Shown here: piece after piece, positions 4,776 through 58,683 of the stretch
Numbering within the stretch: the stretch's first letter is position 1
Layout of the letters: every line of letters starts with the position of its first letter
Origin: Owenia fusiformis
Taxonomy: Eukaryota; Annelida; Polychaeta; Sabellida; Oweniidae
Direction of reading: 5' to 3'
DNA length: 64,000 nt
NCBI GenBank assembly: GCA_903813345.2
Contig: CAIIXF020000008.1
Coordinates: 17,962,822-18,026,821, forward strand
The notes under the pieces: model-generated
The model's database searches: none
Told to the model about the DNA's origin: nothing
Seen by the model: only the letters and a program-made list of their open reading frames with translations
Translations under genes and position numbers: made by a program

Positions 4776-5600
4776 TTGGTAAAGAAGCGTAGCGAATCCC
4801 ATCGAACAGCCATGGATGGCATTTTTACAAACAAAGTATATAGCAAAAATGGCAGCCATTTTTCAAAATGGCCGCCTTCTACCAAAAGTGACATTAGACC
4901 ATGTGCCATGCTTATAGTATTCACATACCAAATATGAACAAAATCACTCCACTACTTTTCAAGTTATAGTAAAATACGTTAAAATGGCGGCCATTTTTCA
5001 AAATGGCCACCTTCTTCCAAAAGTGCCATTAGACAGTGTGCCGTGCTTATAGTATTTACATACCAAATATAAACAAAATCGCTCCACTACTTTTCGAGTT
5101 ATAGTGAAATACGTTAAAATGGCGGCCATTTTTCAAAAAAAAATTTTCAAAATGGCCGCCTTGTACCAAAAGTGTCATAGGACAGTGTGTCATGCTTATA
5201 GTATTCACATACCAAATATGAACAAAATCGCTCCACTACTTTTCGAGCTATAGTAAAATACGTTAAAATGGCGGCCATTTTTCAAATTTTTTTCAAAATG
5301 GCCGCCTTCTACCAAAAGTGTCTTTAGACAGTGTGCAATGTTTATAGTATTCACATACCAAATATGAACAAAATCGCTCCACTACTTTTCGAGTTACAGC
5401 AAAAATCGTAAAATAACGAGTAAAGGCCTCCATTTTTCAAGATGGCTGCCATGTGCTTCTTTAATATCTACATTTCTAGCTTTATTAATGTCCTATATAA
5501 TGTTTTTACATCTAAAACATATTGCTATTACAGTTTTACATATTTCACCTAAATTACTGTAAATTCGGCACTAAAATGGCCGCCATTTTGAAATGAGCGG
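4776..5600. repeat. Tandem repeat array, ~133-149-bp unit
   Basis: About four to five imperfect direct copies. Each contains AAAATGGCGGCCATTTTTCA, then a complementary AAAATGGCCGCC, 'accaaaagtg', 'tgcttatagtattcacatacc' and 'aaaatcgctccactacttttc'. Unit starts lie near 4848, 4980, 5116 and 5265, with a degraded copy to about 5600. A diverged relative occurs at 28728-29070. No coding potential. Confidence 0.85.
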
Positions 5601-14041: not shown

Positions 14042-17000
14042 CTGGAAAAGCAGAATATCAAAATATCATCATTAATACAGGATACACATGGATAAAAAAT
14101 ATCTCACTAGTTATGTATCACTGCACCCCCAAAATGCAATCTGATTTTGACACCATTTCGGTGCCAAATTCGGATCAGTAGCAAATTTTGGTGTCTAAAG
14201 GTTTCGGTGCCGGAATGGTGCCGAAACGGTGCCAGAACAGCGCTGAATTTTTTCGATGCCGAAACGGCGCCGAATTATATTGGCTTTGTAGTATACAAAT
14301 CATTCGTCACCCCCCCCCCACTCCAATGTCTCAGCACTTCCATGACCTGTGTTGGATCACAAAAGGTTGGTGTCAGTGGGAATTCAGTTGCTTTTTAAGG
14401 CATATTCTGGAAAAGCTTTGAGATGTTTACTTTGTTTTTTGTTTCATTCCAAAACACAATTTCAGAACTTAAATTCAAAGCAAAGGGAGGCCTGCTCTCA
14501 GGGTATAAGTATCATGTTTAACTACAGGTGTATTTATTTTTATTTTGTCTTAAACATGTTAGATTTACTTACCCCAGGTAGTCCAGGCCCAGTTCCTATA
14601 GACACTGGTATAGGAATGCTGATGAACTGTGGTTGTTGTTGTTGACTACTACCACCTTCAATGAATAAATAAAACATTATGGAATTAAATGATTCATTTG
14701 TTGAGGAGGGGGGGTAATATCCTATAGACAATGGTATAGGAATGCTGATGAACTGTGGTTGTTGTTGTTGACTACTACCACCTTCAATGAATAAATAAAA
14801 CATTATGGAATTAAATGATTCATTTGTTGAGGAGGGGGGGTAATATCCTATAGACAATGGTATAGGAATGCTGATGAACTGTGGTTGTTGTTGTTGACTG
14901 CTCCCACCTTCAAGAAATAAATAAATGTTGACATATTTTATTGAACACTGCTCTTACAACTTGAAAGTATGATTTCAAACAGTTGATACAGTCATTTATG
15001 AGTTGAAAACATTCCTGAATTAAAAAATTCTTTGTTTTCTTCATGGTCACTTTCTTTAATGTCCTATTTAGTTAACCAAATATGAACAAAAGGGTAAAGT
15101 TCGTTATGACAATCATAAAACCAGTCTGTTGTAGCTAGATCTATCAAGGTATCACATTAAAACTAAAGAACACTGGTTTAACAATTTGGTAGCTCTAGGG
15201 AGCAAACTGTCCAATTTGATAATCTAATATACAAGGTGTTAACATGCAAAATGTCACCACCTGTCATTTGTTACACTGTGCTTTCATTAACGCCGTCCCA
15301 TAATGGAGAGGACCCGGTTTTTATTATAGGGACCCCAAACAATGAAAATTAGTACCGTGGGTACTGGGCTCACATGGTGTTGCTCAAAAGTGAAAATAAA
15401 AAAGACGGGTATAATTTTTTGCAGATTTTTTTGTGACAAAATTATTTCATACAACTACTCTTTACAAAGACATGGCTTTTTACAATGCAGGACACCTGAA
15501 CTATTTTGTAAAGCTAGGAAATGGGCCAAAAGTGAATTTCCCGAGACAAAAATGGTGGCCATTTTGAAATTAGGCGAGATTTTGAAGCAGGAGTCACAGG
15601 TTTTTTTTTCTTTATTGATGTTGAACAAAATTATTCTAAATCGGGAATCCTATCTACAGAGGATTTAAAAAGTGTTGACAGAGGTTTAAAACTTGCCACT
15701 TTTTTGGACTGACTGAGAGACAGATGGACGAATCAATGTTAACTAAAATGGCTGAAAATAAAAAAACTGATATAATATTTTGCCGACTTTTTGTAACAAA
15801 ATTATTTCATACAACTACTCTTTACAGTGACATGGCTTTTTACAATGCAGGACAGCTGAAATTATTTGTAAAGCTAGGAAATGGGCCAAAAGTGAATTTC
15901 GCGAGACAAGAATGGTGACCATTTTGAAAATAGGCGAGCTTTTGAACCAAGAGTCATAGGAGAGTTTTTTGTATTGATGTTGAACAAAATTAACTTAAAA
16001 CAGGAATCCTATCGACAGAGGGTTTAAGGCAAATGGTCCAAAAGTGGATTTTGCGAGACAGATAGACAAATCAATGTTAACTAAAATGGCTGAAAATAAA
16101 AAAAAAAATGGATATAATTTTTTGCTGATTTTTCGTAACAAAATTATTTCATACATCTACTCTTTACATTGACATGGATTTTTACAATGTAGGACACTTG
16201 AAATTATTTGTAAAGCTAGGAAATAGGTTAAAAGTGAATTTCGCGAGACAAAAATGGCGGCCATTTTGAAAATAGGCGAGCTTTTGAACCAGGAGTCATA
16301 GGGGAGTTTTCTGTATTGATGTTGAACAGAAATAACATAAAACAGGAATCCTATCGACAGAGGTTTTAAAACGTGCCAGTCAAAAGTGAATTTCGCGAGA
16401 CAAAAATGGCGGCCATTTTGAAAATAGGCCAGCTTTTGAACCAGGAGTCATAGGGGAGTTTTCTGTATTGATGTTGAACAGAAATAACTTAAAACAGGAA
16501 TCCTATCGACAGAGGTTTTAAAACGTGCCACTATTGTTGACGGACAGACAGACAGACAGACGGATGTTAAAGCTGGACTACGCTCCGAAACGCAATCTTG
16601 GGTTGTTTTGGGGGTGAACTTTATCATTTTGAGCTTAATGAAAGATTATAGAATGATGAACAAATGGGGCAAATCTTGTGTAGAAATACTTACGATAAAT
16701 GTGTCATTTCAAAGATTTTTCATTGAATTTGCTTCGATCGGTGCCGGCGATATGATTTTGGAAATGTTTCTAAATGAAGAACGTGACGTCACTTCCGAAT
16801 CATAGCATTCAAAATAAGTAGCGTTTAATTACTTCCTCCTTTCATAATAATACGTTGGTGTAGCGGGTAGAATCCTCGCTGAGCACGCGGGAGGCCCGGG
16901 TTCGAATCCCGCACTAGCCTTTTTATTTTTTTAACTAAATGATTGTTCTTTGATATTACGCAGAAAAAAACAATTTTTATTTACATAAACTTTATATTAG

Positions 17001-20000
17001 AGCTTGAAAATGTAAAAACAATATATGTCAACATATTGCGTTTCGGAGCGTAGTCCAGCTTTAACTAAAATGGCTGAAAATAAAAAAAAATAGATATAAT
17101 TTTTTGCTGATTTTTCATAACAAAATTATTTCATACATCTACTCTTTACATTGACATGGATTTTTACAATGTAGGACACTTGAAATTATTTGTAAAGCTA
17201 GGAAATAGGTCAAAAGTGAATTTCGCGAGACAAAAATGGCGGCCATTTTGAAAATAGGCGAGCTTTTAAGCCAGGAGTCACAGGGGAGTTTTCTGTATTG
17301 ATGTTGAACAGAAATAACTTAAAACAGGAATCCTATCGACAGAGGTTTTAAAACGTGCCGCTGTTGTTGATGGAAAAGTGGATTTCACAAGTCAGATGGA
17401 CAAATCAATGTTAACTAAAATGGCTGAAAATAAAAAAATAGATATAATTTTTCGCTGATTTTTTGTAACAAAATTATTTCATATATCTACTCTTTACATT
17501 GACACAGATTTTTACAATGTAGGACACCTGAAATAATTTGTAAAGCTAGGAAATGGGTCAAAAGTGAATTTCGCGAGACAAAAATGGCGGCCATTTTAAA
17601 AATAGGCGAGCTTTTGAACCAGGAGTCATAGGGGAGTTTTCTGTATTGATGTTGAACAGAAATAACTTAAAACAGGAATCCTATCGACAGAGGTTTTAAA
17701 ACGTGCCAGTCAAAAGTGAATTTCGCGAGACAAAAATGGCGGCCATTTTGAAAATAGGCGAGCTTTTGAACCAGGAGTCATAGGGGAGTTTTCTGTATTG
17801 ATGTTGAACAGAAATAACTTAAAACAGGAATCCTATCGACAGAGGTTTTAAAACGTGCCACTATTGTTGACGGACGGACAGACGGACGGACAGACGGACG
17901 GACGGACGGACAGACGGACAAGTGAGCGATTGCAAAAGCTCACCATGTGAGCTAAAAATGAGGGGTCACTTGGACGCAGTGCAGGTCATATCAAAAAATC
18001 ATCTCTGGATGAATGGATTGATAAAGATCTTACCTTCAGTCTTTTATTTGGTCAAAATCAGCTAAATAAACGAAGGATATTCTATTTCTAAAAGAAATAA
18101 AATTATCTTTCGGAGTTTCTTTCCCGGAAGTTGATTTCCGATCAATATAGTATGAGGTATGTGATAGGACAATCACTTGTAGTTGATTTCCGAGCGGTAA
18201 TCGTTACGAGTCCTATGATTGGCTGCGATTATTGATCGCGCATGCGTCTTGATAATTTTAACTAATCAAATTGCTGGATTTGTTGCGCATGCGCAAAAAA
18301 CTGAACCAAAGAATGGAACCTCACGGAGACTGCTCCTAATGAAACTTTCTGAGCGATCAAATCAATAGCAAATTGCTTTGAAATACGCGAAGAAAAATGG
18401 TATTTAATGGGTGAATATTACTTACCTCTTTCAAATGAAGGTATCTGCATCATTTAATGACCTACTAGACGTGTGTAGAAAACTAATCTGGGCCAAAAAA
18501 TAACAAAACTGATGCAAACGTTTCATCAATTTTTTTCGTTCAGTGCAAAAATGTGACTTTGAATTCCCGGGAACCTTTTTTCATAGGGACGCACTTTTTT
18601 GAGGGGGGACGCAATTTTGGAAAATCAATCCGTCCCAGGGAAGCACTTTTGGAGAAGCCTACTGAAAGCACTGTTACACCAACTCCTGAACACCATTCAC
18701 AAAAAGGTGGGCACTATAAAAGTATGTCAACGCTTCTGACGGGGAGTGGTGACAAAAGTTTAAAGAAATTATTTTTTCTATCACTTACTATTTGTAGTTT
18801 CTGTGTTGGTTGGTTGCTGTGATATGACTGGTGCCGAAGGGAGATTGAGAATGAAGGTGTCTGGTATATGGTTCACTTGTGTCGTGGGGGTGGCGTAAAC
18901 AACACCCTGGGGGGTCTGGTACATTACTGTACCCCCACTACTGTTGTTAGCCTGTGTCCTGTTTGAACGTTCTATAAATAATGAAAATAAAATGTCGTTA
19001 AATTTTCCAGATCAATGAGTGCCCTACCTGCATGCATGTGTTGACAGGGATCTTCATTGAAATGCATTTAAATAAAACACTCCCTTAAAATGAATTTAAA
19101 TGGAAAAACAAACTACAGTAAGGATTTAAAAATGGATTTAAATGAGATCTTAAAAATCTGCTACCAAAAGGCAGGCCTGTTGCAGGGACACAATGGCGCA
19201 ACATGTTAACCCAGTGAAAAAGTTAATAATTACAAGTGAAGAAAAAACATTCTTGATTTGCAGAACTTTTAGTGCATTTCTGTGAATCAAAGAAAAATTG
19301 GTGTAAAATGTCCACAACAATTTGTAATAACAAGAACATGTTGAAAAGAAAATGAAATTCATGAATTGACATGATTGAGTGCTTTATATGCATGAATTAA
19401 ACATCTTATATGCATGAATTAAATTAAATGTTATTCATGCATGTATATGTGTTAAACATTTTGCATGCATGAATCAAATGTTTAACATGCATGTATCTTA
19501 ACATTTTACACACATGAATTAAAATTACAATATGCATGTATGTATGTAAAACAACGAGCTTTACAATATGCATGTATTTAACATTTTACATGCATCAAAG
19601 TAAATGCTTTACATGCATGTATCAAACATTTACATGCATGAATCAAATGTTTTACATGCATGTATCAAACATTGCACATGAATGAATCAAATGTTTTACA
19701 GTCCCTACCTGGTATTGTGGCACTTTGGGTGGTTTGAGCTGCTTGTGTTGTAATAGTAGATCCTGAACTAGCATTAATGCTACCTGCTGAAATAGAAAAG
19801 CACAATTTAGGAGTCATCCAGCTGTGAAACGGTGACAATGGAAATAAGAAATTCTCAAGTTCATCTTTGGTGTACGTATGACTGTTGACAGTAAAAAAAT
19901 GGAAAGTGAAAATCAATTTTCATCCACCTATGTAATGATTTGACAAGGCATAATATGCCAAGTGTCACCACCAGCCATTTCTTACAGACGCCAATTGCCT

Positions 20001-23000: not shown

Positions 23001-26000
23001 AAACACTGTCCGCAAAAAGTTGGAGATGATAACAATGTCACCACTTGTATTTTGCACATTTTGAACTAGAAATTAGAGCTGTTACAATGCAGTAAACCAA
23101 CCTGAGTTGTTGTTTGGGTTGAGACTGGAGCCATGTATGATGTCATAGATATCCCCTGGTTAAGGCCTGCTGACGATATATGTATATTCTGAGCTGCATT
23201 GTTTTGGTCACCTGAGCCAGGGACATTGGCGAGAGTGTAGGTCCTGGGGGTGGGGACTTGGCTGATCATTTGCTGCTGTTGGTCTAACTATAAATACAAG
23301 ATTAACATGACATCTTTTATTTTATCTGGAATCCTGTTTTAGATTATTAGAAAACAGCTAGCATAGTCCTGCACACAAGCCTTGAAGAGTGCTCTTATTC
23401 ATAATGCAGCTAAGTTAAGTTTGACTAATGATAATGATTTTCTGGCCAGTTTGCAAAGATTTAAAGCACTGATTGAATAATCATTACAATTCTAAAAATG
23501 TGAAACGTAAAGGCTAGAAGCACCATCGAGATGAAGTTTGTTTTTTTAATTTGTAAATGGGTTAACTAAGACAGAAAATTATCATTAAAGTTTCATATCA
23601 TCTTGAATCTGGGTAATTTAGGAATGTACTAAAAACCCTTCGACCCTGCAACCTACGACTTATAGTATAGTAGGAACAAGGGGTTCCCATGCACCCATAA
23701 GGTGTGAATAAGTTACATACATTTTTGTAATCCCTAGGGTGTCTATTTAATGAATTCATTTGTTAACATTGCCAACTAATGTCCCATAGTACTTTTATGG
23801 CGGCATTCAGTTACCATGGTTACGCATCTTTAGACATCTTACCTTGGTATCTTAAATCATTTGTAGCTCTGTCATTATTTGGTCTATAGAAATGATATTG
23901 GTACCAAAGTGAACCTCGTTAAATTTCCAATAAATTTCTGATATTCAATTATGCAAATTATCTAATTTGCATAAATTATGACGTCATCAATCTATTTTTG
24001 GTTCAGAATTTCCAACTATAGCAATGTATCTATTAGAACTGAGGCCGTATGGCAAAATTTCTGAAAGGTTTTGTCCTTTTTTCTATTAGTAGAAGGTATA
24101 AGCAACATAAAAGTGAAAACAGATTCAAAATTGAATCAGTATTACGAAAGTTATGTAACTTTCGAGGCAGCTATCGTGAATGTCATTATTTGACAATAAT
24201 ATACATTACGTCTTACCTTGGAGTCTTGAATCAATGTAGCTTCGCTATTATTTGGTCTATAGAGATGATATTGGTATCTGATTAAACCTTATTAAATTTA
24301 CTATATGGTTACAATATTCAGTTATGCAAATTAGCTAATTTGCATTAATTGTGACGTCATCAATCCATTTTTGGTTCAGAATATCCTAGTATAGCAACAT
24401 ATCTATTAGAACTGAGGCCTTATGACAGAATGTGTGCGTAGTTTTGTCCCTTATTTGATGAGTGGAAGATATAAGCAACATCAAAGAGACAACAAATCTT
24501 CAAAATTGGATCAGAATTAACAAAATTATCCAGCTTTGGAGGCAGCTACTGTGAACGTCATTGTTTGACAATTATAAAAAGAATATTAAATAAACAAAAA
24601 AAGTAACAACCATAGTTGTTTCAATCTAATTGAGTAAAAATGTGCATGTATTGAACTGAACTGATAAGTATGTGGAAAGGTTACATGTATTTTGACTATC
24701 ATTCACAGGGGTCAAAACGGTTATCTCGACCCTGTATATTAAAGATCCAATTTTATAATTTACCATGCACTTTCAATGATTTATATAAATAGTATACATA
24801 TAGTCTGATTTTCATCATATTCTTCATATTCTTGATTCTTAAAGCATCTGAAGTATAAAGCATGATTAGAAGTGAAGATGATTCATCATATGGTTTATGT
24901 AATATTTCTAACATTTCAGATGCTATGGTAACATCACTTGATAATGAGGTTTTTACATTTCACGTTCTTAATGAGTTAAAAGAAAGTTATTCTCCCTTTG
25001 CTTTAGAGAAAAATGGTCACATGAATTTGTTTAAAAAAATTATAACTTAATTTAACCCCCTCCTGACAGCCCCCATATTTGAAGATTTTGGTGAAACCTG
25101 GTAAAATACATTAATTATTATGTTCGAGAAGCCCTCAGAAGCTATATGATGGCCCCAAGAATCTATACAGGGGCCCCAAGTGGCCCCCAGAAGGTATACG
25201 ATGGCCCCCAGAAGCTATACAAGGGCCCCCAGAAACTAAACTGTGGTCTCCAGAAGCTATATGGTGGCTTCCAGTGGCCCTCAGAAGCTATATGATGGCC
25301 CCCAGAAGCTAATTAGTGGCCCCCAGGAGCTATACGGTGGCACCCAGAAGCTATTCAGGGAACCCCAGTGGCCCCAAGAAGCTATACGATGGCCCCCAGA
25401 AGCTATACAGCAGCCCCCAGAAGCTACACGATGACCCCAAGAATCTATATGATGGCTCCCAGAAGCTATACAGGGCCCCCAGTAGCCCCTAGGAGCTATA
25501 CAGTGGCCCCCAAAGCTATATGGTGGCCCATTGGGGGACACTGTATAGCTTCTGGAGGCCATCATATAGCTTATGGGGGCTACTGGGGGGCCCTTTATAG
25601 CTTCTGGGAGTCATTGGGGGCCACCATATAGATTCTGGGGGCCATTTTGTAGCTTCTGGGTACCACCATATAGCTCCTGAGGGTCACTATTTAGCTTCTG
25701 GGGGCCATCATATAGCCTATGATGGCCACTTGGGGCCACCGTATAGCTTCTAGGGGCTACTGGGGGCCCTTCACATCTTCTGGGAGCCATTGGGAGCCAT
25801 CATATAGATTCTGGGGGCCATCATGTAGCTTTTTGGGGCTCCTGTATAGCTTCTGGGGTCCATGGTTTAGCTTCTTGGGGCCACTGGGGTCCCCTGTATA
25901 GCTTCTGGGAGCCACCGTATAGCTCCTGGGGGCCACTAATTAGCTTCTGGAGGCCATCATATAGCTTCCGAGGGCCACTGGGGGCCACCATATAGCTTCT

Positions 26001-29000
26001 GGAGACCATAGTATAGTTTCTGGGGGCCCTTGTATAGCTTCTGGGGGCCATAGTATAGCTTCTGGGGGCCCCCCTATAGCTTGTGGGGGCCACCGTATAG
26101 CTTTTTGGGGCCACTGGGGGCCCCTGTATAGCTTCTGGGCGCCACCGTATAGGTCCTGGGGGCCACAGGGTTTCCTGTATAGCTTCTGGGAGCCACCGTA
26201 TAGCTCCTGGGGGCCACTATTCAGCTTCTGGGGGCCAACATATAGCTTCTGGGGAGCACAGTATAGCTTCTGGGGGCCACTTGGGGCCTCTGTATAGATT
26301 CATGGGCTACTGGGGGCCATCATATAGCTTCTGGGGGCTTCTGGAACCTAATAATTAATGTATTTTGCCAGGTTTCACCAAAATCTTCAAATATGGGGGC
26401 TGTCAGGGGGGGGTTAAATTAATTAAGTTATAATTTTTCTAAACAAATTCATGTGACTATTTATCTCTAAAGCAAACGAGAATAACTTCCTTTTAACTCA
26501 TTAAGAACGTGAAATGTAAAAACCTCATTATCAAGTGATGTTACCATAGCATCTGAAATGTTAGAAATATAACATAAACCATATGATGAATCATCTTCAC
26601 TTCTAATCATGCTTTATACTTCAGATGCTTTAAGAATCAAGAATATGAAGAATATGATGAAAATCAGACTATATGTATACTATTTATATGAATCATTGAA
26701 AGTGCATGGTAAATTATAAGATTAGATCTTTAATATACAGGGTCGAGATAACCGTTTTGACCCCTAGGTACTAGGATATTCTGAACCAAAAATGGATTGA
26801 TGACGTCACAATTAATGCAAATTAGCTAATTTGCATAACTGAATATTGTAACCATATAGTAAATTTAGTAAGGTTTAATCAGATACCAATATCATCTCTT
26901 TAGACCAAAAAATGGCGAAGCTACATTGATTCAAGACTCCAAGGTAAGACGTAATGTATATTATTGTCAAATAATGACATTCACGATAGCTGCCTCGAAA
27001 GTTACATAACTTTCGTAATACTGATTCAATTTTGAATCTATTTTCACTTTTATGTTGCTTATACCTTCTACGAATAGAATAAAGGACAAAACCTTTCAGA
27101 AATTTTGCCATACGGCCTCAGTTCTAATAGATTCGTTGCTATAGTTGGAAATTCTGAACCAAAAATAGATTGATGACGTCATAATTTATGCAAATTAGAT
27201 AATTTGCATAATTAAATATCAGAAATTTATTGGAAATTTAACGAGGTTTAATTTGGTACCAATATCATTTCTATAGACCAAATAATGACAGAGCTACAAA
27301 TGATTTAAGATACCAAGGTAAGATGTCTAAAGATGCGTAACCATGGTAACTGAATGCCGCCATAAAAGTACTATGGGACATTAGTTGGCAATGTTAACAA
27401 ACGAATTCATGAAATAGACACCCTAGGAATTACAAAAATGTATGTAACTTATTCACACCTTATGGGTGCATGGGAACCCCTTGTTCCTACTATACTATTA
27501 CAGCGTGTCAAGAATTTTTGAAATATATTTTTATAAAAACCCTTCGACCTTCTATTTCTCAGTCCATATGAAGTTGCTGGAAATATTACTTTGTGTATAG
27601 AACTTAAGAATCTGTCCCAAGAGAGTTAAAGATATTTAAAGCTGGACTTTGCCCCGAAACGCAATCTTGGGTTGTTTCGGGGATGAACTTTATCATTTTG
27701 AGCTTAATGAAAGATTATACTAGAATGATGAACAAATGGGGCAAATCTTGTGTAGAAATACTTACGATAAATGTGTCATTTCAAAGATTTTTCATTGAAT
27801 TGCTTCGATCGGAGCCGGTGATATGATTTTGGAAAGGTGTCTAAATGAAGAATGTGACGTCACTTCCGAATCATAGCATTCAAAATAAGTAGCGTTTAAT
27901 TACTTCCACCATTCATAATATCACGGTGGTCTAGCGGTAGAATGCTCGCTTAGCACGCGGGGGGCCGGGTTCGAATCCCGCATTCGCCTTTTTATTTTTT
28001 TTAACTAAATGATTGTTCTTTGACATTACGCAGATAATTTTTTTTTTATTTACATAAACTTTATATTAGAGCTTGAAAATGTAAAAACAATATATGTCAA
28101 CATATTGCGTTTTGGAGCGATGTGCAGGTTTAATGTATTCAAGCACATTCGAATGTGAACGTTTCTTACCTCCTCAGTAAAAATATTTGTGCTTTTTCCA
28201 TCACATTGTAACAGTGGCGCATCGTGCATATTTTCAGGAGGTCAAATTTTTTATATAGTTTAAAGAGAACCGTCTTTTGATTTTATCAACTTTGATTCAA
28301 TTTGGATTTGTATAGTTAAGAATCTAATGCCAACTAAATAAGTAGATTCTTTGTTTTGCATCCTACAAAATCCAAAGCATGCAAGGGTACAAGGAAAATA
28401 AACACAAACTCAAGAAAAAGCTTGCAAGCTAGGCCATATCAGGTTCGTATAACCAGCTTTTGCCAATTTAAGTTTTTCAAAAGGATCAAGGGTGAACATT
28501 TGACAATTTTCAAGTGGCCCAGAAATCTTGAAAATGCTCAGAATCGTGAAAAATTGTACTGATTTTGAGAGAATATTTGGCCAATGGAGTGGTCCACTTG
28601 AACCCACGAATGTCCCCCATGAATATATACATTTTAAGGGCATTAAGGTTATTACAAACACATCTATACAACTATATTTATTAGACATAGATATGAAACA
28701 TTTCAGAACTAGATAACAGCAACTCGAGGTGGAGCAAATCCCATCGAACTTTTGATCTCAAAATCGTTCAACTACTTTTCAAGTTTTAGTAAAAAAGTAA
28801 AACAAGACTTTAAAATAGAGGCCACTTTTCAAAATGGCCACCTGGCCAATGTGCCATGCTTATGTGTATCAACATATCAAATGTGAAAAAATAGGTCCAC
28901 TACTTTTCGAGTTAATATGCAAAATAACACACACTAAGTTAGAAGCCATTTTTCAAAATGGCTGCCTACTTGCCAAAGTGTCATAAGATAGTGTCCCATG

Positions 29001-54539: not shown

Positions 54540-55400
54540 TTTTCAGAAGTTCAAATCTGACTTTATACGTAAGATTTGACCTTTAATGACCTTTTTCAAG
54601 GTCAAAAAGGTCTTTCTTCATCTTGCTTCAAATTGATCGATTTTTTCAAAATCATCTTTAAGTTATCAGAAGTTCAAAATCTGACTTAAGATTTGACCTT
54701 CAATGACCTTTTAAGGTCAAAAAGGTATTTTTTCAACTTGCTTCAAATTGACCAATTTTTTTCAAAATCATCTACAAATTCTCAACATTTCAAATCTGAC
54801 TATAGATTTGACCTTCAATGACATTCTCAGTTTGACTTTATATTTAAGATTTGACCTTCAATGACCTTTGCAAGGTCAAAAAAAGGTCAAAAGGTCTTTT
54901 TTCAACTTGTTTCAAATTGACCGATTATTTTCTAAAATCATCTATAAGTTATAGAAGGTTCAAATCTGACTTAAGATTTGAGATTTGACCTTCAATGACC
55001 TTTTCAATGTCAAAAAAGGTCAAAAAGGTCTTTTTTCAACTTGCTTCAAATTGACCAATTTTTTCAGAACCATCTACAACTTCATAACATTTCAAATCTG
55101 ACTCTAGATTTGACCTTCAATGACATTATCAAGGTCAAAATAGATTTGACCTTTAAGGATCTCCTCATGGTCAAAAAGGTCATTTTATCTTGCTTCAACA
55201 TTTTGTCGTGTGAATGCCTTGTTAAATATCTGTATTGAAGGTTAATGACAATCGCGATCGCCACAGAAGGTCAACTTATCTTAAAGATCAAATATCAATA
55301 TACGGATATATAAGCACTTCGATATATCATGAAGGTCTTCTGGAGTCATGGTAGGCCAAGATCAAGGTCATATCAAGGTCATATCAGGGTCAACTGCCAC
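54540..55400. repeat. Tandem repeat array dense in TGACCT/AGGTCA half-sites
   Basis: Six or more irregular copies of a ~100-bp unit: 'agatttgaccttcaatgacc', then TTTTCAAGGTCAAAAAGGTC, 'ttttcaacttgcttcaaatt', 'gaccaattttttcaaaatca'. The spacing TGACCT-N4-TGACCT recurs. 55265-55390 continues with AAGGTCA motifs without the full unit. Two units also occur at 39870-39960. Confidence 0.85.
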
Positions 55401-58183: not shown

Positions 58184-58683
58184 NNNNNNNNNNNNNNNNN
58201 NNNNNNNNNNNNNNNNNNNNNNNNNNNNNNNNNNNNNNNNNNNNNNNNNNNNNNNNNNNNNNNNNNNNNNNNNNNNNNNNNNNNNNNNNNNNNNNNNNNN
58301 NNNNNNNNNNNNNNNNNNNNNNNNNNNNNNNNNNNNNNNNNNNNNNNNNNNNNNNNNNNNNNNNNNNNNNNNNNNNNNNNNNNNNNNNNNNNNNNNNNNN
58401 NNNNNNNNNNNNNNNNNNNNNNNNNNNNNNNNNNNNNNNNNNNNNNNNNNNNNNNNNNNNNNNNNNNNNNNNNNNNNNNNNNNNNNNNNNNNNNNNNNNN
58501 NNNNNNNNNNNNNNNNNNNNNNNNNNNNNNNNNNNNNNNNNNNNNNNNNNNNNNNNNNNNNNNNNNNNNNNNNNNNNNNNNNNNNNNNNNNNNNNNNNNN
58601 NNNNNNNNNNNNNNNNNNNNNNNNNNNNNNNNNNNNNNNNNNNNNNNNNNNNNNNNNNNNNNNNNNNNNNNNNNNNNNNNNNN
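58184..58683. other. Assembly gap (500 N)
   Basis: Exactly 500 N, a conventional placeholder length, so the real distance is unknown. Open frames across it are artefacts. Confidence 0.99.

Follow-up and report, generated by a model that had tools for sequence, protein, structure and literature searches.

A TTAA-flanked inverted-repeat element of Owenia fusiformis with a tRNA-like module in its interior

Whether a DNA element that inserts at TTAA can carry a tRNA gene, and by which route such a gene would have entered it, is the question raised by a locus of the annelid Owenia fusiformis. Herein, we analyzed a stretch of 64 kb (positions 17,962,822 to 18,026,821 of contig CAIIXF020000008.1, assembly GCA_903813345.2; GC content 35%), called the window below. 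A sequence-only reading had described a 490-bp DNA-transposon-like unit at 16571-17060, with a tRNA-Ala-like gene in its interior. Our analysis indicates that this unit is a real, slightly unusual mobile element, and that its module is most likely a captured, decayed tRNA gene with the promoter boxes left.

An inserted element in two copies

The 26-bp terminal inverted repeats (TIRs) of copy 1 matched at 26/26 bases (E 1e-7), and the whole element, folded as DNA, had a strong predicted structure (z -6.6) whose outer stem was the TIR pair. When the flanks of copy 1 were fused over a single TTAA, the alignment crossed the junction in three unoccupied stretches of the surrounding tandem array, with identities of 84.6% (17301-17512), 85.6% (15977-16182), and 83.8% (15677-15840). 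In these array empty sites, TTAACTAAAATGGCTG was unbroken at 17411, 16077, and 15739. Since the joined flanks align through all three stretches, copy 1 is an insertion with TTAA duplication, for which the empty sites are direct evidence. The perfect inverted ends and the duplication reported earlier were verified, and the unoccupied TTAA site, said to be present in the array, was seen in three neighboring units.

A second copy, also of 490 bp and flanked by TTAA, lies further downstream. The two copies were identical at 453 of 486 aligned bases (93%), with six indel events. An empty counterpart of the joined flanks of copy 2 was not found in the 64-kb window. The element has the features of a miniature inverted-repeat transposable element (MITE): TIRs of 26 bp, which are perfect in copy 1 and worn in copy 2, a TTAA at either end, a length of 490 bp, and non-coding sequence, as none of the 16 listed open reading frames (ORFs) of at least 110 aa touches either copy. 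Further searches were carried out in collections other than animal genomes, and their results do not inform copy number. There were no exact matches to the TIR, conserved-interior, and module patterns in viral_contigs or to the TIR and interior patterns in genome_contigs, and plasmid blastn gave short weak matches only (best E 0.1 among the best 20 of 33 records).

The tRNA-like module and its promoter boxes

To search for tRNAs, we used a covariance model of 22 tRNAs from five phage/E. coli loci (L001-L005), with the cloverleaf annotated by hand. On both strands of the 64-kb window, at E values up to 10, exactly two matches were obtained, one per element: 31.2 bits in copy 1 (E 3.9e-8) and 30.0 bits in copy 2 (E 1e-7). 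An unfiltered search of each element returned the module match and otherwise nothing above 3.1 bits. The match in copy 1 spans model positions 6-67, the acceptor stem being mostly unrecognized. As a yardstick, the model was run on six fetched loci, which include all 22 training tRNAs, where, at E values up to 0.1, 72 matches scored between 13 and 80 bits. Most short-arm tRNAs were at 48-80 bits, and long-arm and other tRNAs were lower, compared with 30-31 bits for the modules. Each copy in the window (2/2) carried one significant match at the same place, and a copy lacking the tRNA-like part, which would speak against the sequence-only reading, was not seen among the two.

The phage blastn results, in which some phages appear twice, also point to homology with tRNA, although the matches were weak. 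For the copy 1 module (E 0.001 to 2), 16 of the best 20 of 243 records had an annotated tRNA, 14 of them tRNA-Asp, and four had none; for the copy 2 module (E 0.05 to 8), the best 20 of 185 records comprised ten with an annotated tRNA, eight of them tRNA-Asp, and ten without. At the blastn match in one unannotated phage, SSBI34, the model found a tRNA (L006 5987-6059, 73.7 bits).

For the RNA polymerase III (Pol III) promoter, A-box and B-box consensus sequences were used, and pairs were sought 25-70 bases apart, with an A-box spacer of 1-3 bases in the relaxed version. The window contains only two B boxes, both within the modules, and two A and B box pairs, one strict (16856, 16899) and one with the relaxed spacer (27927, 27968). 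By comparison, 100 dinucleotide-Markov sequences of 64 kb contained no box pair. A T-run stands directly behind the acceptor end in both copies, and the B box (11/11) and the T-run (13/13, with one extra T) are alike in the two. The arrangement corresponds to a predicted type 2 Pol III promoter with a T-run terminator, strict in copy 1 and with relaxed A-box spacing in copy 2. Because the A box, B box, and T-run are present, a short Pol III transcript that ends in the T-run and does not span the element would be possible in principle.

Table 1. Coordinates of the two element copies and their parts within the 64-kb window
Feature	Position	Strand	Remarks
MITE-like element, copy 1	16571..17060	+	490 bp
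TTAA target-site duplication, left of copy 1	16567..16570		Basis: sequence; empty sites in array
TTAA target-site duplication, right of copy 1	17061..17064
Left TIR, copy 1	16571..16596	+	26 bp, begins AGCTGGACT
Right TIR, copy 1	17035..17060	-	26 bp
tRNA-like module, copy 1	16854..16919	+	Model match 16854-16914; 3' end from alignment with copy 2
A box, copy 1	16856..16867	+	Strict consensus match TRGYNNARNNGG
B box, copy 1	16899..16909	+	GGTTCGAATCC
T-run directly after module, copy 1	16920..16932	+	Possible Pol III terminator
Tandem array around copy 1	15386..17860		Rows with 152-bp and 342-bp periods; holds copy 1 and three unoccupied sites
MITE-like element, copy 2	27640..28129	+	490 bp, TIRs worn
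TTAA left of copy 2	27636..27639
TTAA right of copy 2	28130..28133
tRNA-like module, copy 2	27925..27988	+	Model match 27925-27989; anticodon triplet AGC with U33; relaxed ARAGORN Ala(agc)
A box, copy 2	27927..27937	+	One base short of strict spacing; relaxed spacer only
B box, copy 2	27968..27978	+	GGTTCGAATCC

Whether the module is an intact gene was examined with standard tools. ARAGORN in its standard mode found no tRNA in the 64-kb window or in the two element excerpts (0/2 copies), and Rfam at gathering scores found no tRNA in either copy. At a relaxed threshold, the T-arm of each copy matched tmRNA, within the tRNA clan of Rfam, at 12.4 bits (one same-clan match per copy was omitted), and the other rows were far under their gathering scores. 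When the ARAGORN thresholds were lowered to 85%, copy 1 was reported as Leu(gag), and at 70% copy 2 was reported as Ala(agc) as well. In a hand-set cloverleaf frame, copy 1 paired 3/7 acceptor, 3/4 D, 5/5 anticodon, and 4/5 T positions, and copy 2 paired 2/7, 3/4, 5/5, and 4/5, respectively. The T-stem mismatch is common to both copies and therefore, in this frame, predates their split. Predicted RNA folding of the modules did not stand out from that of shuffled sequences (z -0.56 and +0.69). An intact nuclear-type tRNA gene was rejected on these grounds: the standard ARAGORN and Rfam searches gave 0/2 copies and the stems were not all paired in any frame tried, the exception being the mitochondrial mode of ARAGORN on copy 1, which is weighed below. 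Of the tRNA-like fold with intact B box and T-run described in the sequence-only reading, the B box and T-run are thus found in both copies, whereas the stems are incomplete.

The isotype is less clear than the name tRNA-Ala suggests. Position 33 of the shared frame is G in copy 1 and T in copy 2, and the assignment to Ala rests on the AGC of copy 2 with its U33. Among 13 human tRNAs, Pro-AGG and Gly-GCC tied as nearest to copy 1 and Gly-GCC was nearest to copy 2, with Ala-AGC ranking joint fourth and fourth, respectively. Among 36 phage and E. coli tRNAs, drawn from the 50 annotated in L001-L005, a tRNA-Asp was nearest to each copy and the sole Ala ranked fifth for both. The body is therefore closer to Gly, Pro, or Asp among these reference tRNAs. 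Support was found for a TTAA-specific DNA-type element in which each of the two copies holds a tRNA-derived module with promoter boxes and T-run, but not for an intact tRNA-Ala gene. Ala fits copy 2 only, and relaxed ARAGORN reads copy 1 as Leu(gag).

Higher conservation of the tRNA-like part would, according to the sequence-only reading, support a function. This was not observed: between the copies, the module was identical at 57 of 64 aligned bases (89.1%) and the rest of the interior at 352 of 370 (95.1%). The module had seven substitutions and two indel events (9 in 66 columns), and the rest of the interior had 18 and four (22 in 374). Fisher's test, performed on these two copies after the alignment had been inspected, gave p 0.034 with indels and 0.075 without, and p 0.006 with indels when the shifting A/T run at 16962-16980 was dropped. 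Stated cautiously, these counts show no higher conservation in the module than in the remaining interior, which, for two copies, goes against selection for function. The B box (11) and the T-run (13) are unchanged and comprise too few bases to say more.

Classification and origin of the element

A tRNA-derived short interspersed nuclear element (SINE) consists of a tRNA head followed by a body and an A-rich or simple-repeat tail, within flanking target duplications of variable length. The present element resembles SINEs in that its tRNA-like part is degenerate and has A and B boxes, but differs from them in that the module lies inside a TTAA inverted-repeat element. Classification of the unit as a SINE was rejected, as the T-run follows the acceptor end and no body, CCA, A tail, or other hallmark of retroposition was seen by eye. 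Cassandra is a nonautonomous long terminal repeat (LTR)-type retroelement with a Pol III promoter from 5S RNA; it is likewise a nonautonomous mobile element carrying a unit derived from a Pol III gene, but it is of LTR type and uses 5S RNA, while the present unit is derived from tRNA.

Among TTAA-specific DNA elements, piggyBac elements have CC[C/T]T next to TTAA (PMC2872659), and this class was rejected because the present element ends in AGCT. In Xenopus, another report (PMC6004289) describes Kolobok elements with TTAA duplication and RR ends, including ten elements with AG ends in which all but one TIR stands beside an intact TTAA. The present element shares the TTAA duplication and the AG ends. 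Since its ends read AG(CT) beside TTAA, Kolobok is suggested rather than piggyBac, and judging from these sequence features a TTAA-targeting, Kolobok-like, nonautonomous DNA element is most likely. The Kolobok/T2-type MITEs of Xenopus are alike in TTAA duplication, AG ends, and short nonautonomous structure with inverted repeats; however, T2-MITE TIRs begin AGGRR, and the descriptions consulted mention no tRNA module (PMC6004289), whereas the present TIR begins AGCTG and neither a transposase nor an autonomous partner was identified in the window. Among molluscs, nearly all reports of Kolobok concern bivalves, whose genomes contain many MITEs (PMC10294476).

By analogy, the CMITEs of Acropora corals, which are of piggyBac type, appear to be the nearest published parallel found. 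They are also flanked by TTAA and have an internal region of unexplained origin, for which capture of host DNA is discussed by their authors (PMC2872659). In CMITEs the ends are CC[C/T]T, and conservation between families is higher in the internal region than in the TIRs, whereas the present element has AGCT ends and a tRNA-like module of lower identity than the rest of its interior. The main text of the CMITE paper has no word beginning with tRNA (PMC2872659).

We consider it probable that this nonautonomous element is of Kolobok type, that a tRNA gene entered its ancestor as DNA, and that the module is a decayed passenger, perhaps weakly transcribed. Movement of the element would depend on a transposase, presumably of Kolobok type, encoded at another site of the genome. 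Before the copies split, the ancestor would have gained the tRNA gene together with the downstream T-run, probably while a gap between its inverted repeats was repaired, and the module would then have been carried along while decaying. The module may still recruit the Pol III machinery and yield a short RNA that stops at the T-run. These sequences demonstrate no role of the module in movement or in the host.

Retroposition offers another route, in which a tRNA-derived SINE or a tRNA retropseudogene was reverse-transcribed into one ancestral MITE, which then multiplied. The shared place of the module in both copies fits this route, as does the match in copy 1, which runs from the D-arm to the T-arm with most of the acceptor stem left out, as is common in SINE heads. 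But the T-run directly after the acceptor end would halt Pol III ahead of any SINE body, and inspection by eye, with no program run, recognized neither a SINE body nor an A-rich tail, nor a target duplication flanking the module. Capture as DNA is therefore favored, and we regard retroposition as unlikely. Selection on the element might instead maintain the module as a functional component that, through transcription or factor binding, opens chromatin, shields the element from silencing, or aids transposition, but this seems quite improbable: both copies have the A box, B box, and T-run, these are the sole such box pairs in the window, and in a shifted frame copy 1 retains seven acceptor-like pairs, yet the module overall is not better conserved than its surroundings and the A-box region of copy 2 lacks one base relative to copy 1. 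The differences within the module might also be explained if two subfamilies had captured, or gene-converted, different tRNA-like sequences, since 5/7 module substitutions are transversions. The rest of the interior is similar (11/18) and the alignment continues across the module edges, and we find this explanation very hard to credit.

Several observations weigh against the passenger origin proposed here. When the frame is moved by five bases, all positions of an acceptor-like stem pair in copy 1 (7/7, GU counted), but the D-stem is absent, and the acceptor of copy 2 pairs 4/7 in the shifted columns and 5/6 in ARAGORN's own frame. Because the 7/7 stem of copy 1 appears only in the frame without a D-stem, either the acceptor or the D-stem is lost, and no frame tried pairs all four stems. 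This stem makes capture as DNA slightly weaker and retroposition slightly stronger. The mitochondrial mode of ARAGORN at standard thresholds accepted copy 1 as a D-armless Leu(gag) and rejected copy 2. Identity of the B box and T-run between the copies may be a sign of constraint, although stretches as short as these would be expected to match at this overall identity. The evidence for faster divergence of the module is weak: the test was post hoc, p was 0.075 without indels, and the 66 columns of greatest divergence begin at 16912-16914 and include just the last bases of the module (permutation p 0.15). Moreover, the sample is two copies only, and no transposase turned up among the nine ORFs scanned in the window, no wider search having been made.

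Surroundings and biological meaning

Five of the nine scanned ORFs had Pfam matches, to EF-hand, MFS, SRF-type, RPE65, and VWA domains. A 3.8-kb near-palindrome (23662-27498) has its right end 141 bp ahead of copy 2. Its outer arms (23662-24391 and 26769-27498) are 730 nt long and 98% complementary, further arms lie inside, and it holds a 21-bp minisatellite array with a strand switch near 25540. It resembles a foldback-type element, with no obvious target duplication at its ends. A perfect TGACGTCA palindrome, which we take to be CRE-like, occurs in the left interior of both element copies (16784, 27855), and the four other TGACGTCA sites in the window are all within the arms of the large palindrome. 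The motif AAAATGGC[C/G]GCC, which resembles a YY1 core, is common to tandem arrays of different units and to nearby sites (4846-5589, 11289, 16251-17749), with 13 sites on the plus strand and nine on the minus strand. Units of 115, 134, and 36 bp with a GATTTGACCTTCAA stretch in common form further tandem arrays at 54570-55176, and a run of 500 N at 58184-58683 is probably an assembly gap.

Among the literature matches listed, judged by titles and abstract openings and covering part of the literature, there was no earlier report of a TTAA MITE with an internal tRNA gene. A bolder reading, to which we give little weight, is that of a cut-and-paste family that uses its own Pol III unit, for example for open chromatin or excisable copies. 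If it were true, the family would spread tRNA-like transcription units through an animal genome. In the origin that we prefer, with the module as a captured and decaying passenger, a DNA transposon family can acquire a Pol III promoter unit and disperse it, which would provide a source of tRNA-like loci independent of retroposition.

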